Source of the DNA: Segetibacter aerophilus
GTDB taxonomy: Bacteria; Bacteroidota; Bacteroidia; Chitinophagales; Chitinophagaceae
Reading direction: 5' to 3'
Length of the DNA stretch: 64,000 bases
Assembly: GCF_007991655.1 (NCBI RefSeq)
Contig: NZ_BJYT01000006.1
Span: forward strand, 1 to 64,000
Shown here: positions 3,077 through 61,723 of the stretch, piece by piece
Numbering within the stretch: the first letter of the stretch is position 1
Layout: each line of letters begins with the position of its first letter
Position numbers and translations under genes: made by a program
The notes under the pieces: model-generated
Told to the model about the DNA's origin: nothing
The model's input: only the letters and a program-made list of their open reading frames with translations
Databases searched by the model: none

Positions 3077-3098
3077 GTACAAGAGTGCGACGCAACAA
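3077..3098 (+). repeat. Dispersed palindromic repeat, copy 1
   Basis: GTACAAGAGTGCGACGCAAC with palindromic core TGCGACGCA at 3086-3094. It lies between the dprA start and the end of the PorE-like gene, in an otherwise featureless gap of about 260 bp. Confidence 0.75.
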
Positions 3099-3193
3099 AA
3101 GCTAATAGCAGCGATTTGTCGGTAACAAAAAAGAGGAAAACAGATTTTGTCGTTTTCCTCTCTAAATTATTCAAACCTGAAATAGTGTTCTTC

Positions 3194-5107
3194 TTACTGA
3201 CCGGTAATAACAAACTCCGTCCGCCTGTTTTGAGCCCGGCCGGTTTCGGTAGTATTGTCTGCAATTGGTTTCGTTTCTCCAAAACCTTTGAACGCGAGAC
3301 GAGTTAAACTAATGCCCTTACTTACCAGGTAATCAACAACAGCTTTTGCGCGGCTGGCAGACAGTTTAAGGTTATCAGCGGGTTTACCAACGTTATCTGT
3401 GTAGCCGTTTATTTGAACTTTTAACGTTGGGTTTTCAGTTAATAACTGCAGTAAGCGGTTAATTTCGATCAGGCTTATTGGGGGCAATTCGGCAGAATTG
3501 GTTTCGAATAAAATATTCTTTAAAACAAGCGAAGCGTTCAACTCGATTGGCTGAAGTGGAATATCTTTTTTATAAGTGCTGTCGGGCTGGTTCTTACTTA
3601 GCGGATATAACTGGCTATAAAACAAGTAGCCTTTCCTGTTTACCGTAAAAGTGTAGTCTTTGCCCACTGGTAGGGTAATGAAGTATTCACCTGTTTCATC
3701 AGTCTGCACATTCATAACCAGCTTTTGTGTTTGATTGTCTACCAACTCCACTGCACTAGGCAAACCCTTTTTCGTTTTTATGTCGTATACCTTGCCCTGC
3801 ACATACAAGGTTCTTGCCGGGCGCACATTAGGCCTGAGGTCGAATGTATAAATATCGAGGCCGCCACGACTATCACTTCTGTCACTGGCATAAAAAGCAG
3901 TCTTTCCATCCGCTGCGACAAACAAGCTTCCTTCATCTTCAATCGTGTTGATAGGGAAGCCTAAGTTCTCGGGCGTGCTCCACTGATTGTTTGGCCCTTT
4001 TCTGCAGATAAAAATGTCGTTGCCACCATAGCCTTGTAGCCCGTCTGATGTGAAATACAAAGTAGCATTGTCCGCATGGATAAAAGGGGCTTGCTCCTTA
4101 CCCGCCGTATTAATGGAAGGTCCCATATTGACTGCGGGAGCCCAGCGTCCATTTGGCTGACGATAACTAACATACAAATCGGTGTTGCCATAACCGCCCG
4201 GCCTGTTACTGCTGAAGTATAAAGCTCTTTTATCCGGGCTGAGACTCGGGGCGCTTTCCCAACTTTCGGTGTTGATATTTCTACCAAGATTTTCCGGCTC
4301 ACTCCAACCGGTTGGTGTATAGTATGATATGTATAGATCAAAGTCGCCAAACCCACCGCGAAAGTTATAGCCTGCAAAGATCAACCATTCTCCATCTTGC
4401 GAAATGTTGATAGCTCCTTTTGAAGGTTCAAGATTGATGTCGCCATTTATTAATCTTGATCTTGCATATTTTCTATTTCCCAATATCGTGCTTTCAAAAA
4501 AATCTTCTCTAAACCCAGAACCCCTTCTCGTAAAAACAAACATGCTGTCATTGATGGTAATAGAAGGGTAGTATTCGCTTTTCTCAGAATTTACACTGTC
4601 GCCAAGATTAACAGGCGCAAACACATAATCAGTTGCAGGATATTTGTTCATGTACTGCACTGCAAACTCGTAACTGCGTTTACGGTACTCACCGCTTTTT
4701 CTGCTTCGGTCGCTTAACTCTGCAATGTTTAAGAATTGATTAATTGCATTGAGAGCATCACTGAAACGCCCAAGTCCTGCGAGATTTATAGAATAGGGAA
4801 GGTAAAAAAAACGGAAGTAGTTAGTATCAATAGCACGTCCTTTTTCAAATTGCTCAACAGCACTTTTATAATCTTTCATTTCGCCGTAAACGCTGGCTAA
4901 TGAAAGGATGGCATCAGCATATCTGGGTTCCGTTTCGATGGCTTTTTTTAAACCTGCAATAGCTTCTTTTAGTTGGCCATCCTGCACCTTTAACAATGCC
5001 CTTTCGTATATGTCAATAGCTTTTTTATTGACCTTATCTGCATTGTATACCTGCGCATATGAGCCAATTGAAAGACTAAAAAAAATGATAAATAAAATGT
5101 TCTTCAT
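3194..5107 (-). CDS. PorE-like TPR / PD40-propeller / OmpA-C outer-membrane-associated protein
   Basis: A 637-residue exported protein with signal peptide 1-18 (ending GSYA|Q). TPR repeats (about 25-130) are followed by a PD40/WD40-type beta-propeller (about 165-405), with blades such as LYFSSNRPGGYGNTDLY. Then come a carboxypeptidase-regulatory-like beta domain (about 425-510) and an OmpA C-terminal peptidoglycan-binding domain (about 525-637) with GYTDNVGK and LSASRAKAVVDYL. This domain order and length match PorE, the peptidoglycan anchor of the type IX secretion system. Bacteroidota carry several paralogues of this architecture, so the exact orthology is inference. The presence of SprA and GldJ in the window is compatible with a T9SS role. 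Confidence 0.85.
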   Translation of the reverse strand: MKNILFIIFFSLSIGSYAQVYNADKVNKKAIDIYERALLKVQDGQLKEAIAGLKKAIETEPRYADAILSLASVYGEMKDYKSAVEQFEKGRAIDTNYFRFFYLPYSINLAGLGRFSDALNAINQFLNIAELSDRSRKSGEYRKRSYEFAVQYMNKYPATDYVFAPVNLGDSVNSEKSEYYPSITINDSMFVFTRRGSGFREDFFESTILGNRKYARSRLINGDINLEPSKGAINISQDGEWLIFAGYNFRGGFGDFDLYISYYTPTGWSEPENLGRNINTESWESAPSLSPDKRALYFSSNRPGGYGNTDLYVSYRQPNGRWAPAVNMGPSINTAGKEQAPFIHADNATLYFTSDGLQGYGGNDIFICRKGPNNQWSTPENLGFPINTIEDEGSLFVAADGKTAFYASDRSDSRGGLDIYTFDLRPNVRPARTLYVQGKVYDIKTKKGLPSAVELVDNQTQKLVMNVQTDETGEYFITLPVGKDYTFTVNRKGYLFYSQLYPLSKNQPDSTYKKDIPLQPIELNASLVLKNILFETNSAELPPISLIEINRLLQLLTENPTLKVQINGYTDNVGKPADNLKLSASRAKAVVDYLVSKGISLTRLAFKGFGETKPIADNTTETGRAQNRRTEFVITGQ

Positions 5108-5232
5108 AGTTGCCGGTCGAATAGGAATGAAGTTCGTAAAAGTTCTTTTAGAGATCCTGTTAAATTGTAAGGCGATGAAAGTGTTCTTCTTAATTAAAAC
5201 GTAAAATCGGAGGAGAAATTTTCTCCGTGTTG

Positions 5233-5856
5233 TTAGGGTACATTTATGTACTTATGAATTTGGAGACTTAATTCCCAGCGAGGATTTTCTTTTATATAAT
5301 CAATGATAGGTGGTGTCATAATAGGCGCTCTCTCCCACTCCGGTTGCAGGTATAATTTACACTCTGCACTCACATTTGCGGCGTGCTTTTCCGCCCATGC
5401 AAAATCATTTTTATTATAGATAATCACCTTCAGTTCATTCGCGTTAGCAAGTGCTTCGTCAGTTGGTGGCCTGAACTTTTTTGGCGAAACGCAGATCCAG
5501 TTCCAATGACCCGACAGAGGGAATGAGCCAGACGTTTCAATATTAGTTTCAAAACCCTCGCTTTGCAATCTGTATGTAAGTTCGTCCAGGTTGTGCATCA
5601 GAGGTTCCCCTCCTGTGATCACCGCCAGCCTTCCGGGTTCTTTACTTGCTGTCTCAACAATTTCGTCGATTGCTATTTTTGGATGCTTGTCGGCATCCCA
5701 GCTCTCTTTTACATCGCACCAGAAACAGCCGACATTACAACCGCCTAGCCTGATGAAATAAGCTGCACGCCCCTGGTGAAATCCTTCCCCCTGGATGGTA
5801 TAAAAAGCTTCCATAACCGGAAGCGTGGTGATCACAGATGTCTGAGCAAAATCCAT
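5233..5856 (-). CDS. queE: 7-carboxy-7-deazaguanine synthase (radical SAM)
   Basis: QueE converts 6-carboxytetrahydropterin to 7-carboxy-7-deazaguanine on the way to preQ0 and queuosine. The 207-residue protein has the AYFIRLGGCNVGCFWCD region, whose three cysteines (CxxxCxxC) bind the radical-SAM iron-sulfur cluster. AVITGGEPLMH and ETSGSFPL follow, as in the QueE family. MEAFYTIQGEG near the N-terminus is the usual substrate-side start. ATG at 5856 sits 4 nt after a TACTTTTG promoter element. The other pathway enzymes (folE and PTPS/QueD homologues) lie at 44.8-46.3 kb. Confidence 0.93.
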   Translation of the reverse strand: MDFAQTSVITTLPVMEAFYTIQGEGFHQGRAAYFIRLGGCNVGCFWCDVKESWDADKHPKIAIDEIVETASKEPGRLAVITGGEPLMHNLDELTYRLQSEGFETNIETSGSFPLSGHWNWICVSPKKFRPPTDEALANANELKVIIYNKNDFAWAEKHAANVSAECKLYLQPEWERAPIMTPPIIDYIKENPRWELSLQIHKYINVP

Positions 5857-5860
5857 CGTG

Positions 5861-5868
5861 CAAAAGTA
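5861..5868 (-). promoter_or_regulatory. queE -7 promoter element TACTTTTG
   Basis: On the minus strand TACTTTTG matches TAnnTTTG and ends 4 nt before the queE ATG, implying a leaderless or nearly leaderless transcript. No clear TTTG -33 element is seen. Confidence 0.45.
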
Positions 5869-7046: not shown

Positions 7047-7052
7047 TTTATT

Positions 7053-7499
7053 ATGGTTAATATAGAATTGACCCGGGTGGAAGGTGACTTTGGTTTCGAG
7101 GCCAAAGACTCAAATGGACATGTAGTGCGTATGGATAGTAATCCAGAGTCGGGGGGAAAGGGTTTTGGAGCACGTCCGATGCAGTTATTACTAATGGGGA
7201 TGGGTGGCTGTGCCGGCATTGATATTGTTTCGATCTTAAAAAAGCAGCGCCAGATAGTAGAGGGTTTTGATATGAAGATAGAAGGTGAGCGCGAGGCAGG
7301 AGTAGAGCCTTCGTTATGGAAAACCGTTAACATTGTTTTTGAACTAAAGGGCGATATTGATATTGATAAGGCAAAAAGAGCGTGCGCGCTTTCTATGGAT
7401 AAGTATTGCTCTGTTGCAGAAACATTACGTAAATCCGGCAGCAATATTACCTGGGATGTGAGAGTGACAACTCCGGAGCCTGCAATTAGTGCTTCCTAG
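7053..7499 (+). CDS. OsmC/Ohr family protein
   Basis: A 148-residue OsmC-fold protein with the two conserved cysteines at about 53 (MGGCAGIDI) and 119 (DKYCSVAETL), which in this family reduce hydroperoxides through a thiol. GGKGFGARPMQLLLMGMGG is typical of the YhfA/OsmC branch. It is divergent from metX and 130 bp upstream of metZ. The same neighbourhood suggests a link to sulfur amino acid metabolism, but the physiological substrate is unknown. Confidence 0.88.
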   Translation: MVNIELTRVEGDFGFEAKDSNGHVVRMDSNPESGGKGFGARPMQLLLMGMGGCAGIDIVSILKKQRQIVEGFDMKIEGEREAGVEPSLWKTVNIVFELKGDIDIDKAKRACALSMDKYCSVAETLRKSGSNITWDVRVTTPEPAISAS

Positions 7500-7530
7500 G
7501 ATTTATTTGACCAGCGGCATAAGATCACTC

Positions 7531-7556
7531 AACATCGTTGTGTCACACACTTGTAC
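7531..7556 (-). repeat. Dispersed palindromic repeat, copy 2
   Basis: AACATCGTTGTGTCACACAC followed by TTGTAC. Core TGTGTCACA at 7539-7547 has perfect ACA-N4-core-N4-TGT symmetry. It lies between the OsmC-like gene and metZ. Confidence 0.75.
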
Positions 7557-7631
7557 TTTTAATTATTCTGGCTACTTTTTTCGAATTTCCATAATCGATA
7601 AGAATTAGCCCGAACCACTAAACCAATTTTC

Positions 7632-16220: not shown

Positions 16221-16298
16221 TTTTATCTCCTTTTAAATTTTCATATTGGCAAAAAAGTTCTTCTTATTTGTCCTGACACAGGCAATCGTACTCTGTCC

Positions 16299-16324
16299 AA
16301 CATCGTTGTGTCACTCCCTTGTGC
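16299..16324 (-). repeat. Dispersed palindromic repeat, copy 3
   Basis: AACATCGTTGTGTCACTCCC followed by TTGTGC. Core TGTGTCACT at 16307-16315 has one imperfect end, with ACA and TGT at the expected distances. It lies between ccmD and gdh, in a 205-bp gap that otherwise holds only gdh upstream sequence. Confidence 0.7.
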
Positions 16325-16425
16325 AGCAAAACGTTATTGAGCTTTTTAAGAGGTATTTGGGTAAACGACAAAATTTGAATAATTGTTGTAGTCAATTTAA
16401 TGCAAGCTTTAGACAGAGGTAGTCG

Positions 16426-18183: not shown

Positions 18184-18215
18184 AACATGATAAAAAGCTC
18201 AATAGTAAAACAACA

Positions 18216-18242
18216 GATGAACGTAGTGCGACGCAAGGATGT
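18216..18242 (+). repeat. Dispersed palindromic repeat, copy 4 (subtype B)
   Basis: GATGAACGTAGTGCGACGCA followed by AGGATGT. Core TGCGACGCA at 18227-18235 carries the GATGAACG left arm shared with the copies at 24538, 28161 and 43789. It lies between the tdk 3' end and the ccmB start. Confidence 0.65.
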
Positions 18243-18273
18243 AAAACCAGGGATAACAGTCCGGCACGAAAAA

Positions 18274-18870
18274 CTAATTATGTTCAGATCCTACCAGCCT
18301 CGATTGTCCTTCATTGTAACACTTTCGGCATCTTGGTTCATATACATCTTGTTCGCCTAATAACACCTGGCCTTCTTCTGCCGATTTGCGATAAGAAATG
18401 TTTGCAAGATGACCGCACCTTACACAGATCGCATGAAGCTTTGTAATAAAATCAGCAATTGCAAGCAGCTTTGGCATTTGCCCAAATGGTCGTCCTTTGA
18501 AATCCATGTCGAGACCTGCCACGATCACGCGAATGCCTTTCAACGCCAGTTTTTCGCAGACATTAATAATTTCATCGTCAAAAAATTGAGCTTCATCAAT
18601 TCCTACAATGTCAACGTCGTTTGCCAGCAATAAAATGGTTTGTGAATTATCGATTGGAGTAGAATGTATAGAATTTGAATCATGACTTACTACATCAGTT
18701 TCGTCGTAACGGACATCAATAGCAGGTTTAAAAATTTCGACTTTCAGGTTAGCAATTTTGGCTCTTTTTAATCTTCTGATGAGTTCTTCGGTTTTTCCAC
18801 TGAACATGCTGCCGCAAATTACTTCGATCCAACCACGCCGTTCACCTGAAATATTCGGTTCAATAAACAT
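18274..18870 (-). CDS. tdk: Thymidine kinase (type II)
   Basis: Phosphorylates thymidine in nucleotide salvage. The 198-residue protein has the P-loop [14 protein letters not shown], the catalytic-glutamate motif [12 protein letters not shown] and a zinc-binding domain with CVRCGH and CRKC cysteine pairs. These match the small tetrameric TK1-like enzymes. The ATG at 18870 fits the family start. It is divergent from the unknown gene at 18956 across 85 bp. Confidence 0.96.
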
Positions 18871-24487: not shown

Positions 24488-24523
24488 ATGCCGATACTTT
24501 TTTGAGTACCGGCATTTGTTTTT
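24488..24523 (+). terminator. Intrinsic terminator after rfbD
   Basis: Stem ATGCCGATAC/GTACCGGCAT (nine of ten paired), 8-nt loop, then TTTGTTTTT on the plus strand. Confidence 0.88.
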
Positions 24524-24530
24524 CATCGCG

Positions 24531-24557
24531 TCAGCGTTGCGTCGCAATCCGTTCATC
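24531..24557 (-). repeat. Dispersed palindromic repeat, copy 5 (subtype B)
   Basis: Core TGCGTCGCA at 24538-24546 with the arm ATCCGTTCATC, the reverse complement of the GATGAACG arm. It sits between the rfbD terminator and the convergent hom gene. Confidence 0.7.
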
Positions 24558-24570
24558 TATGGTACTTCTA

Positions 24571-25827
24571 TTACACTATGCCTGCAAGTTCTAAACTTCT
24601 TTTCTTCAGCTTTATCACCTCAAAATCTTCGATAATAGGCTCTGTTGCCAACACAAGAGAAGTTTTGTTTTCCTTCCACCAACTATTATTTCGCAGTTCA
24701 CCAACATGCAATACACCTACTAAATATTTTCTTTCAGCTTCCGCATGCCATTCTTCAATCCATTCAAATTTTTCTCTTGGTATGTAAGCCCAATCATCAA
24801 AGCTTACATACACCTTCACGTAAAAGTCGTTGGTTAGCTCGTTTGGCTGGTGATGATACAGCTTCTTGTATTCGTACTTGTAATCGTAGCGCAAAGCAGA
24901 AAGGTCACTCAGCACGGCCGAGGCCGTAGGAAAACTTCCTGCTCCTTTACCGTAGAAAAACTGCTTATCGGCAAAACCGCTTTCAATTACCACCCCGTTG
25001 TATTGGTATTTGACGAAAGAAAGCGCATCGTCGTGTTTTACAAATTGCGGTAATACAAAGGCAGCCACCTTACCGTTTTTCAATTTCTTAGCCTGCGCGA
25101 CCAACTTAATATCTACCTGTTTTTCTTTCGCAACAATAGCATCGCCAAGTTGAATATTTTGAATACCACTAAATAAGATGTTGTTAGGATGTTCGACAAT
25201 TCCATAAGCATGGTTTAATAAGATACTCCACTTGTTTACCGCGTCGTAACCCTCGACATCTAAAGCAGGATTGCTTTCCGCAAAACCCAATTGTTGGGCC
25301 AGCATAAGGGCTTCTTTAAAATCAAGCCTGTCCTCGAACATCTTCGAAAGAATGAAGTTGGTGGAACCGTTTATAATTCCTTTTATAGAGTGTAAAAGAT
25401 CGTTATCGTAATATTCCTCCAGGTTACGAATAACAGGAATACTTGCACAAGCGGCGGCCTCATAAAGGAAAGGTAAACCGGTCTGTTGTTGTAACTCAAG
25501 TATTTGGGGCAGGTGGTCGGCAATCATTTTTTTGCTTGCGCTAACCACTGCTTTCCCATTCCGCAACGCAGTTGATACAATTTCAAAAGCTGCTTCAGGA
25601 TCGTCGATAACTTCTACAATCACGTTTATATCTTCATCAAAAAGCAGGTCTTCTTTATTCGACGTGAACAATTCACTCGGCGCATTTCTTTTTTTTCCGG
25701 GGTGCTTAATACAAACCTTCTTTATTTGAGCTTTTAATGAGGGAGTTTGGTTTAAAACTTTATACAACCCTTCTCCAACAACACCAAATCCAAAAATTCC
25801 AATAGTAAGACTTTTGTGAGCTTCCAT
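24571..25827 (-). CDS. hom: Homoserine dehydrogenase
   Basis: NAD(P)-dependent reduction of aspartate semialdehyde to homoserine. The 418-residue protein has the Rossmann start IGIFGFGVVGEGLYKVL, SASKKMIADHLPQILEL, the substrate block GIINGSTNFILSKMFE and FAESNPALDVEGYDAVNKW with the catalytic lysine. YGKGAGSFPTASAVLSDL completes the fold. A C-terminal region of about 100 residues follows; I cannot assign it with certainty as an ACT domain. Upstream on its mRNA are a SAM-I riboswitch and a terminator, so its expression should fall when S-adenosylmethionine is abundant. This ties it to methionine rather than threonine supply. Confidence 0.93.
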   Translation of the reverse strand: MEAHKSLTIGIFGFGVVGEGLYKVLNQTPSLKAQIKKVCIKHPGKKRNAPSELFTSNKEDLLFDEDINVIVEVIDDPEAAFEIVSTALRNGKAVVSASKKMIADHLPQILELQQQTGLPFLYEAAACASIPVIRNLEEYYDNDLLHSIKGIINGSTNFILSKMFEDRLDFKEALMLAQQLGFAESNPALDVEGYDAVNKWSILLNHAYGIVEHPNNILFSGIQNIQLGDAIVAKEKQVDIKLVAQAKKLKNGKVAAFVLPQFVKHDDALSFVKYQYNGVVIESGFADKQFFYGKGAGSFPTASAVLSDLSALRYDYKYEYKKLYHHQPNELTNDFYVKVYVSFDDWAYIPREKFEWIEEWHAEAERKYLVGVLHVGELRNNSWWKENKTSLVLATEPIIEDFEVIKLKKRSLELAGIV

Positions 25828-25930: not shown

Positions 25931-25967
25931 TATATTTTAATACCGTAGATTATTAAAACTTACTCAT

Positions 25968-26078
25968 GCTTATCTCTCCCGTTTGCGGGATGGAGTTGGC
26001 ACCTTCTTACAAATAGAGTGAGATGTAAGGGTTGCCAAGGCTTCAAAGGGCCATCACCCTCTGCCTTTCTTGATAAGT
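25968..26078 (-). promoter_or_regulatory. SAM-I (S-box) riboswitch aptamer
   Basis: Read on the minus strand, the closing helix P1 pairs CTTATCA with GATAAG. The S-box conserved core is intact: AAGGCAGAGGGTGATGGCCC (k-turn region), TGAAGCC, TGGCAACC, and AAGGTGCCAACTCC later in the fold, ending GGGAGAGATAAGC. Spacing and order match the SAM-I class that binds S-adenosylmethionine. With the terminator at 25900-25930 it should switch off hom transcription when SAM is high. Confidence 0.96.
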
Positions 26079-26400
26079 GTTTTTAAGAACTGCTGCAAAA
26101 GTAAGAGGGGCGAAAGCAAAAAACAAATAAATAAGCGAAGTTGAAGTACGCCTAAACTTGGAACCGTTTTTCTAGACTCTCTAAAAATGACTTCTTTTGG
26201 TTTCTTTATAACTCGTTTTGATTCAAGCCACTATACTACTGTTAACAGGCTTTAACAATGCGAGGAATTTTTTCTACTATTTACTTTATCAAGTGCTTCT
26301 TATCTGGTTAGAAGTAGTCCTAATGCTCCTTTTCCATTGAAAATCAAAATGGTATTAAAATTGAAATTCTTATTGATACTAATACAGCGTACAAAAAATT
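26079..26400. other. AT-rich upstream region between hom leader and GT4 operon
   Basis: This divergent gap holds the hom promoter and the promoter of the 26401/GT4 transcript. I find no clean TTTG...TAnnTTTG pair and no dispersed-repeat copy. Base composition is visibly more AT-rich than the flanking genes. Confidence 0.3.
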
Positions 26401-28118: not shown

Positions 28119-28153
28119 TAATTTGTTCTGTACCAGCATTTGTTTCCATTGCT

Positions 28154-28180
28154 ACATTGTTGCGTCGCAATACGTTTATC
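28154..28180 (-). repeat. Dispersed palindromic repeat, copy 6 (subtype B)
   Basis: ACATTGTTGCGTCGCAATAC followed by GTTTATC. Core TGCGTCGCA at 28161-28169. It lies between the GT4 gene and the gmhB-like gene. Confidence 0.72.
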
Positions 28181-28259
28181 GATAAACCAGTGTGGAGCTG
28201 AAGTCTTCAATGCTTGACCCTTCCAACTTCAAGCCAACCCTTAATTGTACATTTACCTA

Positions 28260-33675: not shown

Positions 33676-33796
33676 CTTTTATATTTAGTCGAATGTCAAC
33701 TTAAAAAATTATTCCATTGTTTGTAGCATGCGTGCAGGAAAGATGTTGATTTTCGCCGCCTAGGGATCTTTTTGTTATGAGCTACAAAACCACAGT

Positions 33797-33822
33797 CAAC
33801 ATCGTTGTGTCACTCCGTTTTA
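33797..33822 (-). repeat. Dispersed palindromic repeat, copy 7
   Basis: CAACATCGTTGTGTCACTCC followed by GTTTTAC. Core TGTGTCACT at 33806-33814. It lies between the sprA terminator and the carbamoyltransferase start. Confidence 0.7.
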
Positions 33823-33859
33823 CTTTTAATCTTTATTCGGCTCTTTTGTAAATGGTCAT

Positions 33860-43084: not shown

Positions 43085-43133
43085 AAAGCTTACCTGATTT
43101 TATGGGTTCCAACTTCGGTAGTTACTTTAAGCA

Positions 43134-43155
43134 CTGTTGTGTCACACTCTTGTAC
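43134..43155 (-). repeat. Dispersed palindromic repeat, copy 8
   Basis: CTGTTGTGTCACACTCTTGT followed by AC. Core TGTGTCACA at 43138-43146 with CTCT then TGT on the right. It lies between fabH and the GNAT gene. Confidence 0.72.
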
Positions 43156-43228
43156 CACAAATCTTTTTGGGGCAACCCGCCCTCTCACCATTCGTCTAAA
43201 ATGGCAAGCCTCGATTGACACAAAAAGC

Positions 43229-43737: not shown

Positions 43738-43777
43738 CAATAGCAAAACATAAAAAAAGCAAAACGGAATTAATGTT

Positions 43778-43797
43778 GATGAACGAAATGCGTCGCC
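43778..43797 (+). repeat. Dispersed palindromic repeat, degenerate copy 9 (subtype B)
   Basis: GATGAACGAAATGCGTCGCC. The core at 43789-43797 has one imperfect end and the subtype-B left arm. It lies in the convergent gap between the GNAT gene and fabD. Confidence 0.5.
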
Positions 43798-43865
43798 ACT
43801 AATGTCGATAGAAGTTTTTGTGCTTGTACCAAAAAGCATCGAAAAAGCCTCTAACCTTCAAGACT

Positions 43866-47944: not shown

Positions 47945-50674
47945 CTAGGCATCATATTCCAACACTGGTCTTAACCATCTTTCAACTTCTTCCAGATCCA
48001 TATTTTTTCGTTTAGCGTAATTTGTAACCTGGTCCTTTTCTATTTTACCTATTCCAAAATATTTGCTTTCCGGGTTTGCAAAATACCATCCACAAACTGA
48101 TGACGCAGGATACATTGCAAGACTCTCTGTAAGCTGGATACCGGTAGCATTCGTTGCATCTAAAAGGGCAAACAATTTATACTTTTCTGTATGATCGGGA
48201 CAGGCGGGATAGCCGGGAGCTGGTCGAATTCCTTGGTATTTTTCTTTGATAAAATCTTCGTTGCTTAGGTTCTCATCTTTTACATAACCCCAATATTCAG
48301 TCCTGGTCTTATGGTGTAATAACTCTGCAAAGGCTTCAGCTAAACGATCGGCCAATGCTTGTAATGAGATTTTGTTGTAATCATCGTGCTGCTCGTTGAA
48401 ACGCTTTAAATGCGGTTCAATTCCATCTATGGTAACAGCAAAAGCTCCAAGGTAATCTTGCAAACCTGTTTCTTTAGGAGCGATGAAATCGGTTAAAGAC
48501 ATGTTAGGCTGGCCTGCAGCTTTTTTTACCTGCTGCCGTAAAGATTCAAGTTCTACTACAGTTGACAATTCATCTGTAACTGTAATTGTATCTTTTGCGT
48601 TTGAGTTAGCTGGCCAAAATCCTATCACGCCTTTTGCTGTCAGCCATTTTTCATCTATAATCTTCTTAAGCAGGGCTTGGGCGTCTTTGTATAGCTTCGT
48701 TGCTTCCGCGCCAACTTTTTCATCAGTTAAAATTTGAGGGAACTTACCGTGCAACTCCCAGGCGATAAAGAATGGCTGCCAATCTATATAAGCTGCAATT
48801 TCTTTTAGATCGTGTTCAACAAAACTCTTGGTTCCGATGAAAGAAGGCTTCACCGGCTGGAAGTTCTGCCAATCTAACTTTACCCTGTTCTCTACCGCTT
48901 GCTCGTACGACAAGTAGGCCTTTGTTACTTTCTTGTTTGCAAAATCTTCCTTCAGCTTCCTGTACTCTTCTTTGATACCTTTCAAAAAGTCAGGCTTTTG
49001 TTCTTTGCTTAGTAAAGAACCGGCAACAGTAACACTTCTTGACGCATCGAGTACATGCACTACTCCCTCATCATACTCTTGGGCAATTTTCACGGCCGTA
49101 TGCATGCGGCTGGTGGTTGCTCCACCGATCATCAGCGGCAGGTCCATTTGTCTGCGTTTCATTTCACGGGCTATATGAACCATTTCGTCTAGTGAGGGAG
49201 TGATTAAACCGCTTAATCCAATGATATCAACGTTTTCTCTTTTGGCAGTTTCCAGAATTTTATCTGTGGGAACCATCACACCAAGATCGATGATATCATA
49301 ACCATTACAACCCAGCACAACTCCAACTATATTTTTACCAATGTCGTGCACATCGCCTTTTACTGTAGCTAACAAGATTTTAGCTGCTCCGGCGCCTTCC
49401 TCGTTTACGGTACCGGCAGCCAGGTGAGCCTGGCGGCGCTCTTCTTTTTCAGCCTCAATAAATGGAAACAAGTACGCAACACTTTTCTTCATTACACGAG
49501 CACTCTTTACAACCTGCGGTAAAAACATTTTACCTGCTCCAAAAAGATCACCTACTATATTCATCCCATCCATCAAAGGACCTTCAATTACATCTAAAGG
49601 CTTGGGATATTTTTGTCGCGCTTCTTCGGTGTCAGCTTCTACATAATCTGTAATTCCATTTACAAGCGAATGTGCTAAACGTTTCTCTACCGGGTCATTT
49701 CTCCATGCCTCGTCTTTGACGATTTCTTTACCTTTTGCTTTTACTGTTTCTGCGAAATTGATGAGGGCTTCCGTTGCTTCGTTGTTCTCATTATTACGGT
49801 TTAGCAAAACATCTTCACAAAGCCTTCGAAGCTCCGGTTCGATTTCGTCGTATACCACCAACTGGCCCGCGTTGACTATTCCCATGTCCATTCCTGCTTT
49901 TATCGCATAGTATAAAAAGACCGAATGAATGGCCTCACGAACATGATCATTGCCACGAAAAGAAAAGGATACATTACTGACTCCACCACTTACTTTCGTC
50001 AGGGGCATCTTTTGTTTGATTTCCCTGGTTGCCTCAATAAAGTCGACAGCGTAGTTGTTGTGCTCCTCTATACCAGTAGCTACCGCAAAAATGTTTGGAT
50101 CAAAAATGATGTCTTGTGGATCAAAGCCTACTTGTTCAGTCAGTATTTTATAAGCCCGCTCGCAAATTTCTACTTTTCGTTGTTTTGTATCAGCTTGCCC
50201 TTTTTCGTCGAAAGCCATCACGATCACAGACGCTCCATAGCTTTTGCAGGTGAAGGCTTGCTCTATAAACTTTTCTTCACCTTCTTTCATGCTGATCGAG
50301 TTCACAATGCATTTGCCCTGTACGCACTTTAATCCTGCTTCAATGATCTCAAACTTCGAGCTGTCAATCATTATAGGAATCTTGGCAATGTCTGGCTCTG
50401 CTTGCAAAAGGTTGAGAAACGTAGTCATTGCACTCACGCCTTCAAGCAAGGCATCATCCATATTTACGTCCAGTATTTGGGCACCGTTTTCAACTTGTTG
50501 GCGTGCAACTGAAAGTGCCTCTTCATATTTGTTATCACGAATAAGGCGTGCAAATTTTTTGGAACCGGTAACGTTTGTACGTTCTCCGATATTGACGAAA
50601 TTCATTTCAGGTCTAACGACTAAAGGTTCCAATCCTGAAAGACGTAAGTAAGGTTTTATAACTGTAGAGCTCAT
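47945..50674 (-). CDS. metH: Methionine synthase, C-terminal module (pterin, cobalamin and activation domains)
   Basis: The 909-residue protein carries the three C-terminal modules of cobalamin-dependent methionine synthase. The pterin-binding barrel (about 20-290) starts with [16 protein letters not shown]. The cobalamin cap and Rossmann domains (about 300-530) have the lower-ligand His near 442 in [12 protein letters not shown]. The SAM-binding activation domain (about 580-909) has [14 protein letters not shown] near 821. The homocysteine-binding module is a separate gene (51423-52445). Its ATG overlaps the ORF6N stop (ATGA), so its translation is probably coupled to that gene. Confidence 0.96.
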
Positions 50675-51216
50675 TTCTTTTTTTCTTTTCTATTTGCAAG
50701 AAAGCCTATTTCAGTGCGCGGCTTTTCTTCCTGGATTAATAAAGCCTTTAGAGTATTAAAAATCAATTTCACTTCTTCATCTTTTTTAAAGAGTGCTTGT
50801 TCTATTTTCTCCAGCTTTATCCATAATTCTTTATTGTCAAATAATATTTGTTTCATTCTTGTATACACCCGAACGATTTGTATGTTAACCTGGATAGCTC
50901 TTTCTGACCTTAGCACTGATGAGAGCATAGCAACACCTTGTTCGGTAAACGCAAATGGTAATTTTCGAATGCCACCATAACCTGAAGTCACAAATTGCGA
51001 CTTCAGGTTATTCCATTCTTCATCTTTTAATTGAAACATAAAATCTTCAGGAAATCTTGTAATGTTTCTCTTAACTGCTTCATTTAATCGCCCGGTAGAG
51101 ACGCCATACATTTCCGCCAGATCTCGATCAAGCATTATTTTTACTCCTCTAACAACATAAATCTTTTCACTTATTATTTGTTCTGAAATTTGTTGTTGGG
51201 GTAATGACTTTGCCAT
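50671..51216 (-). CDS. ORF6N-domain DNA-binding protein
   Basis: A 181-residue protein with an N-terminal ORF6N domain (about 10-100): [36 protein letters not shown], and [16 protein letters not shown] helical C-terminal part (about 105-181, with [20 protein letters not shown]) follows. ORF6N and the related KilA-N domain are common in phage and mobile elements but also occur widely in Bacteroidota chromosomes. ATG 51216 is preferred; the open frame begins at a TTG inside an upstream palindrome. It lies between the two metH genes, has its own promoter flanked by two palindromes, and overlaps metH-C by ATGA. Confidence 0.88.
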
Positions 51217-51230
51217 GATAACCTTTCTGG

Positions 51231-51257
51231 TTTGATATCGCAATTTGCGATATCAAG
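51231..51257. promoter_or_regulatory. Palindromic operator-like site O1 of ORF6N gene
   Basis: A perfect 12-bp inverted repeat TTGATATCGCAA/TTGCGATATCAA with a 1-bp centre (51232-51256). It lies at about +3 to +29 relative to the predicted start site and ends 15 bp before the preferred ATG. A second, related 27-bp site lies at 51287-51313. Confidence 0.75.
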
Positions 51258-51313: not shown

Positions 51314-51359
51314 CGCTTTTTTTGAAGTCTTTATGTACCGCACCAATTCACACTATTCA

Positions 51360-51384
51360 ACATTGTTGCGTCGCACCCTTGTAC
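51360..51384 (-). repeat. Dispersed palindromic repeat, copy 10
   Basis: ACATTGTTGCGTCGCACCCT followed by TGTAC. Core TGCGTCGCA at 51367-51375 with the complete ACA-N4-core-N4-TGT form. It lies between the metH-N 3' end and the ORF6N operators. Confidence 0.78.
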
Positions 51385-51422
51385 TTTTCTTCGGTGCGCA
51401 ACAACCAGAGGTTGTCCTATTC

Positions 51423-52445: not shown

Positions 52446-52682
52446 AGTTTCGATTTTTTTATGACTGTTTTACAAACAAGCATAAACGATGAATAGTATT
52501 GTTATAGTTGAAGTGTGCGACGCAACAATGTAAAAAAGAAGTTGTGAAGCCGACTTCAAAAAAATCTCTAAACTAGAAACGAGGACAATCTGGAAATAAA
52601 GCAGAGTGAGATCGTTTATTAGTTCAGTTAAAACCCTACCGCAGCAGGTTGAACAATAAACAAATCCGCCTGCTGAGCGGCG
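52446..52682 (-). other. Long leader of metH-N
   Basis: A leader of about 235 nt between the TATTTTTG element and the ATG. At its 5' end CAGCAGG pairs with CCTGCTG, extended by CCG/CGG around a bulge (52635-52682). GAAGTCGGCTTC forms a small hairpin near 52548-52559, and a dispersed repeat sits at 52511-52531. No cobalamin-box or S-box core is present. Whether it is a regulatory RNA is unknown. Confidence 0.45.
52511..52531 (+). repeat. Dispersed palindromic repeat, copy 11
   Basis: AAGTGTGCGACGCAACAATG followed by T. Core TGCGACGCA at 52516-52524 with ACAA then TGT on the right. It lies inside the metH-N leader, between the end of yceI and the metH-N start. Confidence 0.72.
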
Positions 52683-56719: not shown

Positions 56720-56781
56720 AATTTGAAGCTTTGCAGGGTTCCGCAGCCTTTTTTTGGACCAATGCAGACTGCTACTATTTT

Positions 56782-56803
56782 ACATCGTTGCGTCGCACGT
56801 TTC
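56782..56803 (-). repeat. Dispersed palindromic repeat, copy 12
   Basis: ACATCGTTGCGTCGCACGTT followed by TC. Core TGCGTCGCA at 56789-56797 with ACA-N4 on the left. It lies between the sucD terminator and the FAD oxidoreductase gene. Confidence 0.74.
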
Positions 56804-56860
56804 AGCGTTTTTTCTACTATTTACCCAAATAGCCATAATCATAGTTAACCCGAAGAATCA

Positions 56861-58392: not shown

Positions 58393-58467
58393 TTGCAACA
58401 AGGCTTGGGAGAATCTCCAACAACTGCTACGCTTCGATAAAATGCTCTATAAAGATTTGCCGTTGAA

Positions 58468-58486
58468 GGGAGTGACACAACAATGC
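58468..58486 (+). repeat. Dispersed palindromic repeat, copy 13
   Basis: GGGAGTGACACAACAATGC. Core AGTGACACA at 58471-58479 has one imperfect end, followed by ACAA. It lies between the small membrane protein gene and the deoxyhypusine-synthase-like gene. Confidence 0.62.
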
Positions 58487-58596
58487 AACATAGCAGTACT
58501 GAAGTGGGTAAAACTATACCTTCTTACTTGTCAAAACCCCCGATCAAAAGACGAGTGTTTTTTAATTTATTAACCTGCTATTATGTTTCTAAGTTT

Positions 58597-58604: not shown

Positions 58605-58622
58605 CCGCCCAAATAATTTAAT

Positions 58623-59597
58623 ATGAATAAAGGTCCTGTTTCACAATTTATACAGCATCATTACCGTCACTTCAATGCTGCTGCTTTGGTTGATGCAGCT
58701 AAAGGTTACGAGACTCATTTGCTCGAAGGCGGCAAGATGATGGTAACGCTGGCTGGTGCTATGAGTACTGCAGAACTTGGTATCTCGCTGGCTCAAATGA
58801 TACGGGAAGATAAGATCCAGATTATTAGTTGCACAGGTGCTAACCTGGAGGAAGACGTAATGAACCTTGTGGCGCATACCCATTATAAAAGAGTTCCTAA
58901 CTACCGCGAATTAAGCCCGAAGGAGGAATGGGAACTGCTTGAAAACGGGTATAACCGCGTGACTGATACCTGCATTCCCGAGGAGGAAGCATTCAGGCGC
59001 ATCCAAAAGCATATCCATAAAATTTGGAAAGATGCAGAAGACAAAGGCGAACGATATTTTCCGCACGAGTATATGTACAAATTGTTGCTTAGCGGCGTAA
59101 TGAAAGAGCATTATGAAATACCGGTAGAGCATAGCTGGATGATTGCCGCGGCCGAAAAAAATCTCCCCATTATCGTTCCGGGATGGGAAGACAGCACGAT
59201 GGGAAACATCTTTGCCAGCTACGTTGTGAAAGGCGAGCTGAAGGCAAGCACAATGAAAAGCGGTATTGAATACATGGTTTGGTTAAGCGACTGGTATCGT
59301 CATAATAGCGCTGGTAAAGGGATTGGATTTTTTCAAATTGGTGGTGGTATTGCTGGAGACTTTCCGATTTGCGTTGTGCCGATGTTGTACCAGGATCTTG
59401 AAATGCACGAGGTGCCTTTTTGGAGTTATTTCTGCCAGATCAGCGATAGTACAACCAGCTATGGAAGCTATAGCGGAGCTGTTCCAAATGAAAAGATTAC
59501 CTGGGGTAAGCTGGACATCCATACGCCTAAATTCATTGTAGAAAGTGATGCTACAATTGTAGCTCCCTTGATCTTCGCTTACATTTTGGGATTGTAG
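58623..59597 (+). CDS. Deoxyhypusine-synthase-like protein
   Basis: A 324-residue protein of the deoxyhypusine synthase family. GGKMMVTLAGAMSTAELGISL forms the NAD-binding start, and ISCTGANLEEDVMN, PIIVPGWEDSTMG and QIGGGIAGDFPICVVPM follow. The catalytic lysine of the family is kept near 296 in ITWGKLDIHTP. Bacteria lack eIF5A, the substrate of the eukaryotic enzyme. Bacterial homologues are thought to act on small polyamines, for example to form homospermidine, but the substrate here is unknown. Confidence 0.9.
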   Translation: MNKGPVSQFIQHHYRHFNAAALVDAAKGYETHLLEGGKMMVTLAGAMSTAELGISLAQMIREDKIQIISCTGANLEEDVMNLVAHTHYKRVPNYRELSPKEEWELLENGYNRVTDTCIPEEEAFRRIQKHIHKIWKDAEDKGERYFPHEYMYKLLLSGVMKEHYEIPVEHSWMIAAAEKNLPIIVPGWEDSTMGNIFASYVVKGELKASTMKSGIEYMVWLSDWYRHNSAGKGIGFFQIGGGIAGDFPICVVPMLYQDLEMHEVPFWSYFCQISDSTTSYGSYSGAVPNEKITWGKLDIHTPKFIVESDATIVAPLIFAYILGL

Positions 59598-59627
59598 TTT
59601 TTGTTACCGGCGAATGGTCTTAATTGA

Positions 59628-59650
59628 TCATGGTTGCGACGCTCCGTTCG
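59628..59650 (-). repeat. Dispersed palindromic repeat, degenerate copy 14
   Basis: CATGGTTGCGACGCTCCGTT aligns with the copy at 33797-33822 (CATCGTTGTGTCACTCCGTT). Core TGCGACGCT at 59635-59643. It lies between the DHS-like gene and its terminator. Confidence 0.48.
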
Positions 59651-59674
59651 AGATTAGTTATTCTATAATACATT

Positions 59675-59712
59675 TTAAAACCCTCTTTCATCGGAGGGTT
59701 TTAGTTTTTTGC
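59675..59712. terminator. Intrinsic terminator between DHS-like gene and 59786-60253
   Basis: A perfect stem AAAACCCTC/GAGGGTTTT (59677-59702) with an 8-nt loop, followed on the plus strand by TAGTTTTTTG. The A-rich left side gives a T run on the minus strand too, so it may serve both convergent genes. Confidence 0.87.
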
Positions 59713-59785
59713 AATTAGGAATTTAAGGGCTACTGTAAGTTTGGAAAAAGCCTGCAGAATTCAATTAACAGCAAGATAATTTCTG

Positions 59786-60253
59786 TCAATTTGTTGCAGT
59801 TCTATTAAGCGTATAGCTAAAATCTCTGTTTCCTACCATCAGGTTTTTCTGAGGGTCTAAAAAAAAGAAAACGTTGTCGTTTGCTTTCAGAAAAAATACA
59901 GCACCGCGGCCAGCAGGGTTTAACTGGTAAACAAGCGCTTCAGGATTTGCCGCGGTTCCTACTGTTGCATGCCACTTGCCCTTCAATACATCTGCACCCT
60001 TAAATACAAATCCCTCTAATTGAAATGTGCCCTCGTCATTTTTTGCCGGGCCTTTGTAGAGCTTTAACCTCCATTTTATTTTTATGCATTCGGGCGTTGT
60101 TGTTTGGTTAAACTGTTTTGCCAATTCCTGGCAAGGTGTTCTTCCGTCAAAAACTCCAACAAGATCACTTGCCTTTTCTGCTGTCTGGGCTGTGCAATTG
60201 TTTATGTAAAAAAAGGAGCTAAATAGTAAGAAGGGTAGAATGAAGTTTTTCAT
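59786..60253 (-). CDS. Small secreted protein, NlpE-like paralogue B
   Basis: A 155-residue exported protein with signal peptide about 1-22 (ending CTAQ). Conserved with its upstream neighbour are VFDGRTPCQ, a second Cys before IKWRLKLY, GTFQLEGF, and NVFFFLDPQKNLMVGN...FSYTLNR. The pattern of a short beta-barrel with an early TPC motif and a DN-LxxLD strand vaguely resembles NlpE N-terminal domains, but the similarity is weak. It is 21 bp after paralogue A. Confidence 0.7.
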   Translation of the reverse strand: MKNFILPFLLFSSFFYINNCTAQTAEKASDLVGVFDGRTPCQELAKQFNQTTTPECIKIKWRLKLYKGPAKNDEGTFQLEGFVFKGADVLKGKWHATVGTAANPEALVYQLNPAGRGAVFFLKANDNVFFFLDPQKNLMVGNRDFSYTLNRTATN

Positions 60254-60274
60254 AGCAATTCATTTTTTAATGAC

Positions 60275-60775
60275 TCATTTTTCAATCCTGTTTACGGCAT
60301 AACTAAAACCTGCGTTACCTGTTATAAAATCATGATTGTTATCAGCAAAATGAAGCACATTATTATCCATCTGAATTAATAAAAGTTCCGGCTTCAGATG
60401 GTTGCCGCTAAAATGATACAATCTGTGTTTTTCGTTCGGCTTAGTCTCACCAACGATTTTGTAAGTTCCGGAGATTTCGATTTTCTTTCCGCCGCCCTTA
60501 AACCCATTTGTATTCGGTTGAGACTCGCCGTACAGAGCTGATAATTGAAAGTGACCGGAAGGGTTATCTAATAGTCTTATTTCCCACTTGATAAACTCAC
60601 AGGTTTCAACGGAGGGTATTTCTAATGAAGCTTTAATAAATGAGTCGCAGGGAGTACTTCCTACAAAAACTCCTGCCGTAATTGCCGATGTTGTGCCGGT
60701 GGTGTTTTGTGGATGGGCCTTCATTACCAGAATACAAGTAAGAACTATGGCAAGGAAAATCTTAATTGTCATCAT
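60275..60775 (-). CDS. Small secreted protein, NlpE-like paralogue A
   Basis: A 166-residue exported protein with signal peptide about 1-22 (ending AHPQ). VFVGSTPCD, CEFIKWEIRLLD, GHFQLSALYGES, NNVLHFADNNHDFITGNAGFSYAVNR line up with the adjacent paralogue at 59786-60253, showing an old tandem duplication. The function is unknown. Confidence 0.72.
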   Translation of the reverse strand: MMTIKIFLAIVLTCILVMKAHPQNTTGTTSAITAGVFVGSTPCDSFIKASLEIPSVETCEFIKWEIRLLDNPSGHFQLSALYGESQPNTNGFKGGGKKIEISGTYKIVGETKPNEKHRLYHFSGNHLKPELLLIQMDNNVLHFADNNHDFITGNAGFSYAVNRIEK

Positions 60776-61059
60776 GAGCTTCTGAATTTAAAATTATAAC
60801 CTGGAGAAAAAATTCGACAATTACAAAGACCGGTGCAACCAGCAAATAGAATTTTAAGTGAATTGAAAAATGAAAGCTATTTGCCGTTTACTAAATATAA
60901 TCATTAAAGGGGAAATATGGGATACAGGAACTGCTATAATAGAAGCTGTAAAAGACGGGATGCCCTAAAATGACTATCTAGAAAATTGCAGGGATTGGTT
61001 TTAAAGATGTCTTCGCATTACATACATAGAACACATCTTTTTAAGGTCGTTTTTAATTT
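60776..61059. other. Intergenic region between paralogue A and the Uma2 gene
   Basis: About 284 bp with no accepted gene. A 32-codon frame (60870-60968) starting MKAICRLLN and containing IWDTGTAIIEAVKDGMP has some protein-like character and may be a gene remnant. No terminator, promoter or dispersed-repeat copy is clear. Confidence 0.35.
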
Positions 61060-61608
61060 TTACCAAATTTCCTTAAATAAGATTTTCGCAGTACAGCCCG
61101 TTTCAAAAGAGAAGTCATAGCTAAGATCTCTTCCTGATTGCTTTAGTTGGTAGATTCCATTTTCTATAGCGTAAACTTCCACCTCTTCCTCGTCGGGGTT
61201 GACAATCAAATAGTATTTTATCTGTTGTTGTTCGTATATGGCAAACTTGCTGTGCCTGTCCTTTAAAGCAGTAGATGGAGACAAAATTTCGACAACTAAG
61301 TCCGGGGGGAAATCAAGATATTTTTTATTGATTTCAGCATAAACAATTAGCAAATCGGGTTGTACAATAATATCTTCCGCAACCTTGTAATCTAATGGCT
61401 GAACCACCTTACAGGCTTTGCATTTTTTTAATTCGTTGCCGAATTCTATTGTAAGGTTACTCGCTATTATCTGGTGTTTTGGTACTGGCATCGGGCTCAT
61501 GGCGTAGGGGATGCCATCGATCAACTCCCATTGACCTTTCCAATTGAGCCAATCCTCGTAAGTGTAATGGGGTAATATTTTAACTGCGCTTGCCATTTCT
61601 TGTATCAA
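61060..61608 (-). CDS. Uma2 family (DUF820) putative restriction-endonuclease-fold protein
   Basis: A 182-residue PD-(D/E)xK-fold protein. YTYEDWLNWKGQWELIDGIP is the typical Uma2 start. The nuclease-like site is VQPDLLIVY followed by PDLVVEILSPSTALKDR and IKYYLIVNPDEEEVEVY. The family is abundant in cyanobacteria and scattered in Bacteroidota; nuclease activity is inferred from fold and its role is unknown. The start may be Met5 (61596). Confidence 0.85.
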   Translation of the reverse strand: MIQEMASAVKILPHYTYEDWLNWKGQWELIDGIPYAMSPMPVPKHQIIASNLTIEFGNELKKCKACKVVQPLDYKVAEDIIVQPDLLIVYAEINKKYLDFPPDLVVEILSPSTALKDRHSKFAIYEQQQIKYYLIVNPDEEEVEVYAIENGIYQLKQSGRDLSYDFSFETGCTAKILFKEIW

Positions 61609-61698
61609 ATTTAAATCATCCGATTTGGTAATAGCTAAAATTATTCCTGTTCACTTTTCTTATTGAGGATTTGTAAAAAAGGAGATAAAAGCTTTAAA

Positions 61699-61723
61699 GT
61701 ACAAGTGTGCGACGCAACGGCTG
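61699..61723 (+). repeat. Dispersed palindromic repeat, copy 15
   Basis: GTACAAGTGTGCGACGCAAC followed by GGCTG. Core TGCGACGCA at 61708-61716 with ACA-N4 on the left. It lies between the Uma2 gene start and the CPBP gene end. Confidence 0.75.

Follow-up and report, generated by a model that had tools for sequence, protein, structure and literature searches.

What is the repeat that recurs between the genes along the first 64,000 nucleotides of a Segetibacter aerophilus contig (NZ_BJYT01000006.1; this whole stretch is referred to here as the window), and what could have placed it there and kept it? The original prediction described about 15 copies of a short, palindromic motif, all outside coding sequence and all in gaps with at least one gene 3′ end, and likened it to REP-type elements, with a 3′-UTR role, a DNA-binding site or a mobile relic as candidate explanations.

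Form, abundance and placement of the repeat

We found that the repeating unit is an oriented element of 77 bp, composed of a left box (GCYGAATA), a core (GTACAAGNGWGYGACRCAACRATG) and a right box (GCYGGNNCAAAAA), with the boxes positioned roughly three helical turns either side of the core. The predicted palindrome is present as a 9-bp dyad at the center of the core (TGYGACRCA); the whole unit, however, is longer than described and is not palindromic. Core columns 41 and 45 hold a C-G or T-A pair in 246/253 copies, and folding of 60 copies gave no conserved hairpin (z of −0.04 forward and 0.18 reverse). A copy-specific helix between the boxes, prompted by the copies at 51361 and 24532, was rejected, as same-copy pairing was no better than cross-copy pairing (69 copies, permutation p=0.16). 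On our best reading, the repeat is an oriented recognition site in double-stranded DNA, a directional tag whose dyad would be bound by a protein.

Scanning the window with a matrix of the full element (threshold of 6.2 set on the reversed sequence; genes called by a custom script) returned 14 copies, every one at a predicted place, and the best score away from the predicted sites was 3.5; a 25-mer with up to three mismatches matched six times in the window vs. 0 in 100 shuffles. The fifteenth predicted copy (43761..43837, +) scored 1.8, under the control threshold, and is possibly degenerate. Core type B (GTGCGACGC) was found at 3058..3134 (+, matrix score 49.9), 51327..51403 (−, 50.6), 52488..52564 (+, 50.6) and 61680..61756 (+, 37.5), while type A (GAGTGACAC) occupies 16267..16343 (−, 48.4), 33766..33842 (−, 51.7) and 58443..58519 (+, 45.9), the last of these being type A in genome G197 as well and type B at the same place in G198. 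The core TGTGACACA is carried by 43098..43174 (−, 50.9) and by 7499..7575 (−, 44.9), whose right box adjoins the stop of the gene called as ending at 7499. Variants lie at 18199..18275 (GATGAACGTAGTGCGACGC; +, 31.9), 24498..24574 (GATGAACGGATTGCGACGC; −, 34.3, in a convergent gap), 59595..59671 (GAACGGAGCGTCGC; −, 34.8) and 28121..28197 (−, 26.6, the lowest score among the 14). Alignment places the copy at 56749..56825 (−, 42.1) in both G197 and G198; visual inspection of the same alignment showed a terminator-like hairpin that separates this copy from the upstream gene. The copy at 51327..51403 is also in G198 and was not seen in G197, G200 or G172, and six further members of the genus have a counterpart of the copy at 52488..52564, identical in gap and orientation (seven-genome alignment, G199 left out), none being found in G172 or G098.

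The predicted dispersed family, present in both orientations far above chance, was borne out genome-wide, as the S. aerophilus genome holds 298 exact 16-mer cores (153/145 on the two strands) vs. 0 for the reversed control, and this bacterium and many relatives carry hundreds to thousands of copies of the element between genes. In the genome G141, 480 kb hold 263 copies (138/125 on the two strands, no strand bias), about one per 3.5–4 kb on each strand. Avoidance of coding sequence holds for the window (0/14 in a called CDS) and largely beyond it: 257/263 copies in G141 are intergenic, with six centers inside called genes, and in a 464-kb sample of the window's own genome 6/76 matches center in a called CDS, four of them low-scoring (14.5–17.1) and two strong. 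The predicted association with gene 3′ ends applies to all 14 window copies, but is not strict elsewhere. In the 464-kb sample, gaps of at least 100 bp were occupied in 10/25 convergent, 47/139 tandem and 7/46 divergent cases, and in G141, with gaps of at least 80 bp, in 36/42 convergent and 27/54 divergent cases; divergent gaps are avoided, yet some copies use them.

This placement raises the possibility of a transcript signal in 3′ UTRs, i.e. a terminator, a stabilizer or a processing site, and both the under-use of divergent gaps and the closeness of copies to gene 3′ ends (of 103 copies with their right end towards such an end, 67 lie within 80 nt of it) would fit such a role. However, copies in tandem gaps lie in both orientations to the genes (28 antisense, 18 sense), their RNA folds no better than shuffles, and the orientation rule described below follows distance and not gene count. 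At gathering scores, Rfam returned a SAM riboswitch in the window and no family at the element copies, and in two further 20-kb loci searched at a permissive threshold the best E was 0.79. The 3′-UTR role raised in the original prediction therefore fits badly, and we regard a transcript-level function as very improbable.

Spacing and orientation of neighboring copies

Neighboring copies obey a rule that combines orientation and distance. Across 13 sampled genomes, neighbors 300–3000 bp apart (pairs present in 11 of the genomes) were opposite in 83/87 cases and the same in four, and neighbors at least 3 kb apart were opposite in 73/126 cases and the same in 53. All 44 pairs closer than 300 bp in these genomes were inverted (39 ‘-+’ and 5 ‘+-’), and the window's own genome has 22 opposite and 0 same-orientation neighbors under 3 kb. 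Opposite orientation was also favored at 4.5–7 kb (24 to 10, p=0.024). The solo copies of G149 comprise three alternating and four same-orientation cases, yet 13/13 of its pairs under 3 kb are opposite; solo copies do not alternate in every genome.

The even-spacing tests were run on G141 (263 copies, 480 kb). Spacing on the same strand was regular, with coefficients of variation (CV) of 0.435/0.429 vs. 0.83/0.85 for a random-gap null (null minimum of 0.62 of 5000), and of 0.43/0.41 once a tandem gene array was left out. With the array included, same-strand pair density was 0.06–0.55 of the null at 0.5–2.5 kb and 0.92–1.41 thereafter, and opposite-strand pair density beyond 1 kb was 0.56–1.48 of the null, i.e. 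the strands are weakly coupled. A sharp peak at 2.5–2.75 kb proved to be a product of the tandem array and was taken out; outside the array, 43/220 same-strand neighbors lie less than 2.5 kb apart. Among crowded same-strand pairs, the weaker copy showed a trend in the direction predicted by the drive model set out below (minimum score 40.1 vs. 44.1, p=0.06).

The alternation had prompted the idea of mobile gene cassettes bracketed ‘+ gene -’, which we dropped in favor of a distance rule for two reasons. First, G122 has no elements (seven G122/G191 stretches gave 0 matches over 12 bits) and yet is colinear with G025; second, the number of intervening genes proved irrelevant, the rule tracking distance in nine genomes.

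Exclusion extends across core types: at 300–2500 bp, A and B neighbors were opposite in 58 cases and the same in 4 (G141 tandem array included), and without G141 the counts were 27 opposite and 0 same for cross types, and 27 opposite and 1 same for like types. Since the two types exclude each other, a single machine probably reads both.

Deletion between close direct repeats would likewise yield a distance-limited, orientation-specific exclusion, leaving the elements with another role or none. We consider such a by-product very improbable. Identity between copies is just 49%, the longest stretches they share are about 11 bp, and similarity within close same-strand pairs is not significantly lower than within distant ones (p=0.40 for identity, p=0.32 for shared runs); A-B exclusion, moreover, is as strong as that between like types.

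Gain, conservation and comparison with mobile repeats

Three solo sites in G025 are longer than those in G122 by 71–80 bp, and doublets of G141 recur elsewhere in that genome at 72–90% identity; whole units have therefore been gained, lost or copied. In low-copy genomes, where ORFs were listed by position at 20 loci, a source gene is conceivable. The G025 and G122 sites are too diverged for a target-site duplication to be read. These differences, a patchy copy number, the intergenic placement (257/263) and the inversion of all 44 close pairs are what a REP/REPIN-like or MITE-like miniature mobile element, moved by a transposase in trans and now partly domesticated, would leave behind. The element further resembles REP, BIME and REPIN sequences with RAYT (GTAG and CGTC families), which are dispersed, intergenic, often in inverted pairs and favor convergent and unidirectional gaps (PMC3733652); the reverse strand of our core has CGTC or TGTC. 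The element differs from them, however, in having no 8–9 bp stem-loop, fold or cognate Y1 transposase, and in its regular spacing: CGTC/TGTC occurs inside the dyad and not as a tag at a stem end, and the 9-bp dyad stands in place of a hairpin-forming palindrome of 20–40 bp. No terminal inverted repeats were seen within a unit, and the two halves of a doublet resemble each other no more than randomly chosen copies do (0.474 across 45 doublets vs. 0.492, p=0.12).

As predicted, the window shows no transposase. The search for a partner covered one transposase family, Y1_Tnp, in 16 genomes including that of the window, and revealed no association with the element; Y1_Tnp is absent from the complete, element-dense genome G141, and of 28 Y1 loci (L136-L163) six contain an element copy, two of the six overlapping. 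In the window's genome, the RAYT-like gene is surrounded by a different repeat, with one weak element copy nearby, and the single reverse transcriptase gene (PF00078) of that genome has no element copy within its 1.5-kb flanks.

Conservation also sits poorly with a mobile relic. In 20 orthologous pairs, core identity was 0.82 vs. 0.69 in unrelated pairs, and that of the outer flanks 0.55/0.59 vs. 0.44. The median best match between copies in the 480 kb of G141 is 0.72, and for just 12/262 copies does an ungapped match exceed 80%. With core retention at orthologous sites and regular, strand-specific spacing added to the missing fold and Y1 partner gene, we judge a mobile element unlikely, and the REP-type comparison of the original prediction is not upheld.

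A possible tag for DNA uptake

We reasoned that the spacing rule could reflect a process that would start at the element and work one way over roughly 2.5–3 kb. Under sequence-biased uptake, tag-bearing fragments would be taken up preferentially and a tract of a few kb would be converted on one side of the tag, so that biased conversion (molecular drive) might let tags spread and persist. A second tag of the same orientation inside the tract would add no uptake and would not be maintained, while a tag pointing the opposite way would serve the other side and be maintained. Our preferred reading, to which we give somewhat less than an even chance, is that the 77-bp element is a directional recognition tag resembling DNA uptake sequences, with recombination.

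We know of no uptake sequence with orientation-specific exclusion, a feature in which the element differs from them, as it does in its 77 bp and three boxes, its nearly exclusively intergenic placement, its occurrence in another phylum and its presence in some phage contigs. It resembles the DUS of Neisseria and the USS of Haemophilus in being a non-palindromic word with hundreds to thousands of oriented copies, equal on both strands. According to three papers (PMC2397512, PMC1939737, PMC7811141), known uptake sequences share with it even spacing, close inverted pairs and a frequent origin as inserts and not point mutations; their spacing is near the recombination-tract length and they are scarce in recently acquired DNA, both of which may hold for the element too. 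They are 10–31 bp long, with many inside genes. Karlin et al., as cited in PMC1939737, found USS spaced evenly round the genome, as our oriented elements are in the sampled part of G141, and that passage is silent on orientation classes such as those behind the exclusion of about 3 kb seen here.

The distribution of the element bears on uptake in both directions. A 62-kb stretch with a low-GC polysaccharide cluster has 0/22 gaps occupied vs. 50/157 elsewhere on the sampled contig (p of 6e-4, descriptive only, as the stretch was chosen for being empty). ComEC (PF03772) is present in 8/8 genomes with elements, which counts for uptake, but it also occurs in 7/8 genomes without the exact core and therefore does not discriminate. 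To these we add, in favor, the number of exact cores with its even split between strands, core conservation, the spacing rule, the mutual exclusion of types A and B and the pairing of core columns; against uptake we count the solo units resembling insertions, the close same-strand neighbors outside the array and the bias at 4.5–7 kb, beyond the proposed range. The 20-mer core also turned up in ten viral contigs, and of six viral loci examined four have an intergenic copy and two a copy in an ORF, one copy lying by phage recombination genes and one among head genes. Phage-borne copies are not predicted by a pure transformation tag.

Chi sites, which are read by RecBCD or AddAB, are oriented and occur genome-wide every few kb, as does our element; Chi is, however, a short word that lies mostly in coding DNA and is strand-biased with replication, whereas the element is long, intergenic and without strand bias. 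The main alternative is a Chi-like or chromosome-maintenance site, oriented and read by a translocating helicase-nuclease, a topoisomerase or a nucleoid protein within the cell. Selection would maintain such sites in both orientations at intervals of a few kb, so that a reader entering the DNA from either side would quickly reach a correctly oriented copy. Even spacing within strands that are weakly coupled, an equal use of strands, conserved cores and the spacing of some phage copies, which lie a few kb apart, would all agree with it. The exact core is absent from 135/195 genomes of the family, which would be odd for an essential maintenance site; moreover, the gain of 77-bp units requires a supply mechanism. 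We consider this alternative rather unlikely, but a serious one.

It is possible, though doubtful, that a Bacteroidota lineage marks its whole genome with directional tags in a previously undescribed kind of system, in which a tripartite 77-bp site and strong same-strand exclusion over about 2.5–3 kb would be the footprint of a process (uptake, particle packaging or break repair) that runs one way along a tract of that length. No published description of the 77-bp repeat was found among the matches listed in the open-access literature. If such a system exists, its footprint would span the whole chromosome and be measurable from sequence alone, and the exclusion distance would indicate how far the DNA-processing step reaches and which way it runs. 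To our knowledge, only two groups of Proteobacteria have well-established uptake tags throughout the genome, and a tag system in Chitinophagaceae would represent a further origin in another phylum. It would also permit a comparison of molecular drive with selection among species in which tags are present, absent or thinned out. The element looks more like a reading mark for a DNA-translocating machine, possibly with a part in DNA import or repair, than like a junk repeat.

Copies and anatomy of the element

A scan of the 5.89-Mb draft genome of Segetibacter aerophilus found the 16-mer core GWGYGACRCAACRATG 298 times (153/145 by strand; 0 in the reversed control), bearing out the original prediction of a dispersed repeat family. 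Within the window, the 25-mer first used to describe it had 6 matches with at most three mismatches (vs. 0 in 100 shuffles), and 14 of the 15 copies first listed were recovered by a matrix of the whole element, but the copy at 43789 scored 1.8 against a threshold of 6.2 derived from reversed sequence. The window and 400 kb of contig C1 held 76 copies above this threshold (~164 per Mb), and by extrapolation the whole genome would therefore hold roughly a thousand. With genes called throughout by our own script, without annotation, 70 of the 76 centres lay outside called genes and 6 inside (4 of these weak), so that copies are mostly, but not always, outside coding sequence. Divergent gaps, seven of which in the window had been reported as empty, were indeed the least-used class in this genome, yet 7/46 were occupied. 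Elements occurred in every gap class, and tandem gaps held 28 antisense and 18 sense copies. In G141, an element-dense genome sampled over 480 kb of one 5.5-Mb contig, 257/263 copies were intergenic and 178/269 gaps of at least 80 bp were occupied. Across five genomes, 67 of the 103 copies whose right end faced a gene 3' end lay at most 80 nt from that end.

Aligning 253 copies drawn from 23 genomes (77 columns) resolved three parts whose spacing hardly varies: the left box (GCYGAATA), the core (GTACAAGNGTGCGACGCAACRATG; type A cores carry GAGTGACAC) and the right box (GCYGGNNCAAAAA). The strongest covariation joined the two sides of a 9-bp dyad, TGYGACRCA (C-G 180, T-A 66, C-A 4, T-G 3), and was tied to the A/T alternative two positions before that dyad. 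Counts of paired bases, together with a centre at which A or T is allowed, suggest that a putative protein reads the dyad in DNA, because an RNA stem of three bases would be too short to be of use. Sixty copies folded as RNA no better than their dinucleotide shuffles, and no pairing between the left and right boxes of one copy was found.

The window also carries a SAM riboswitch (25967-26079, minus strand) upstream of the gene at 24571-25827, and short tandem repeats at 1-71 (AAAAGGC heptamers) and at 1714-1870 (CCTTGTTGCCTTGATAC-type units, adjoining a 67-bp near-duplicate).

Distribution, upkeep and turnover

At least one exact 16-mer was present in 60 of 195 genomes of the family, at 1 to 330 copies and with copy number differing strongly within genera. 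A narrower pattern, GTGCGACGCAACRATG, occurred in 5 of 394 genomes sampled phylum-wide, every one of them from this family (5/14 family members drawn vs. 0/380 other genomes; the reversed control matched once, in one genome). In a separate scan of named genomes, the matches listed included Segetibacter, Foetidibacter, Pinibacter and Ferruginibacter, alongside Bacteroidota or Chitinophagaceae bins.

Between the window's genome and two genus members (G197 and G198), 20 orthologous pairs were 82% identical in the core, 63-64% in the boxes and 55-59% in the outer flanks, against 69%, 47-52% and 44%, respectively, in unrelated pairs; the pairs were chosen by common place and orientation among matrix-found copies, which leaves lost copies uncounted and somewhat favours the core figure, and two of them (C1 242542 and 242636) may be non-orthologous. 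Seven members of the genus had copy 52515 in the same gap, six with an unaltered 12-base core and the seventh with a single changed base; it was not found in G172 or G098 (G199 was left out of this comparison). In the G141 sample, a copy's best ungapped match to another copy had a median of 72%, with 12/262 exceeding 80%. Taken together, these figures point to an old family that maintains its core.

At three of four sites compared, G025 carried 71-80 bp more than its colinear partner G122, in which the matrix found no copy at the compared sites; the fourth was too diverged to be read. Close inverted pairs (doublets) in G141 recurred elsewhere in the same genome at 72-90% identity. These extra segments and recurring doublets suggest gain or loss of entire units. 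Within a doublet, the two halves were no more similar to each other than random copies, which is evidence against a transposon with inverted ends. A search for the associated Y1 or RAYT-like transposase, suggested as a check in the first place, gave no Y1 match in G141. The window's genome does encode a RAYT-like Y1 protein (contig C4, locus 1-3102, at 1105-1683, minus strand), amid seeming copies, by eye, of another palindromic repeat (CTCCGTAGTCGTCCTTCGGAACACTACGGAG-like), which would make a second family in this genome. The stretch holding the ORF at 50671-51243, adjoining copy 51361, aligns with G198; G200 and G172 have neither the stretch nor the copy.

Orientation and spacing of neighbouring copies

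Across 13 genomes, 11 of which contributed at least one pair, neighbouring copies lay in opposite orientation in 44/44 cases below 300 bp and 83/87 at 300-3000 bp; opposite-to-same counts were 35:24 at 3-4.5 kb, 24:10 at 4.5-7 kb (p=0.024), 12:12 at 7-12 kb and 2:7 beyond. The window's genome alone gave 22 opposite and 0 same below 3 kb (25:21 above), and the window itself 5 and 0 (3:5 above). For copies one or two genes apart, 68/71 were opposite if closer than 3 kb and 11/25 if farther; the rule thus tracks distance rather than the number of intervening genes. Types A and B, which differ at three linked core positions, excluded each other at 300-2500 bp in nine genomes (58 opposite/4 same) as strongly as like types did (73/10), and type can switch at an orthologous place (58470 is of type A in G197, as in the window's genome, and of type B in G198), so one putative reader probably sees both.

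Same-strand spacing in G141 averaged 3.5 and 3.8 kb on the two strands (CV 0.43), against a CV of 0.83-0.85 (minimum 0.62 in 5000 draws) for equal numbers of gaps drawn at random. At about 249-302 kb, contig C1 of G141 has some 20 genes of ~2.4 kb arrayed in tandem on one strand, and an inverted element pair sits in most of the gaps between them; core-to-core spacings of 51 and 58 bp are recurrent in G141 pairs. This array creates a false peak in the spacing; its removal left CVs of 0.43 and 0.41. With the array included, same-strand pair density relative to the null was 0.06 at 0.5-1 kb, ~0.3 at 1-2 kb, 0.55 at 2-2.5 kb and 0.92-1.41 beyond, with no deficit at 250-500 bp (4 pairs vs. 2.9). 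Convergent pairs fell to 0.19 of the null at 0.5-1 kb; divergent pairs showed a mild deficit at 0.5-2.5 kb (0.61-0.80) and a large excess below 500 bp. Exceptions exist: with the array left out, 43/220 same-strand neighbours lay within 2.5 kb.

Candidate directional processes

Because the rule depends on orientation and a distance of a few kb, not on genes, we reasoned that a process may start at the element and run one way along the DNA for a few kb. Deletion between direct repeats, likewise dependent on orientation and distance, could also remove same-strand neighbours; however, shared runs between copies are only ~11 bases, and same-strand pairs that lie close together show no significant drop in similarity relative to distant pairs.

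The directional process with the widest explanatory reach is sequence-biased DNA uptake with recombination, which would account for elements spreading with no transposase, gain of units that resembles insertion, regular spacing close to the length of a tract, maintenance of the core, disappearance from entire lineages and an element-free 62-kb stretch with a low-GC polysaccharide cluster (0/22 gaps occupied vs. 50/157, the stretch having been chosen because it is empty). Published work on uptake sequences (PMC2397512, PMC1939737, PMC7811141) describes counterparts of the even spacing, the insert-like gain, the inverted pairs and the scarcity in acquired DNA. The cluster at 123-160 kb of C1 in the window's genome (GC 0.36-0.39) has 31 same-strand ORFs and no element; 5 of 10 scanned proteins are glycosyltransferases.

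We therefore tentatively favour, at less than even odds, the reading of the elements as DNA-uptake-like tags, a possibility weakened by their length and intergenic restriction, which differ from uptake sequences, by a competence gene that does not discriminate genomes with and without elements, and by copies in ten viral contigs, both of the two checked having phage genes beside the copy. A Chi-like site, or another self-mark recognized within the cell, would accommodate the viral copies more easily, and we consider an intracellular directional site somewhat less likely overall than uptake. Three IMG/VR contigs (L335, L336, L339) have one intergenic copy in common between ORFs of equal sizes; those of L336, which alone of the three was scanned, are recombination genes of NinB/Orf- and NinG/Rap-like type. 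Another (IMGVR_UViG_3300006805_000180; L342 and L345), with phage head genes, has four matrix matches and a fifth exact core near its end, the copies alternating in orientation 2-6.5 kb apart.

Among the papers listed in searches of the open-access literature, including 8 of the 23 that contain the core word, none seemed to report the repeat or an orientation-specific exclusion distance. The nearest known kind is the uptake sequence, of which the element would be a clear variant; if its reader is something other than uptake machinery, the element would be new in kind.
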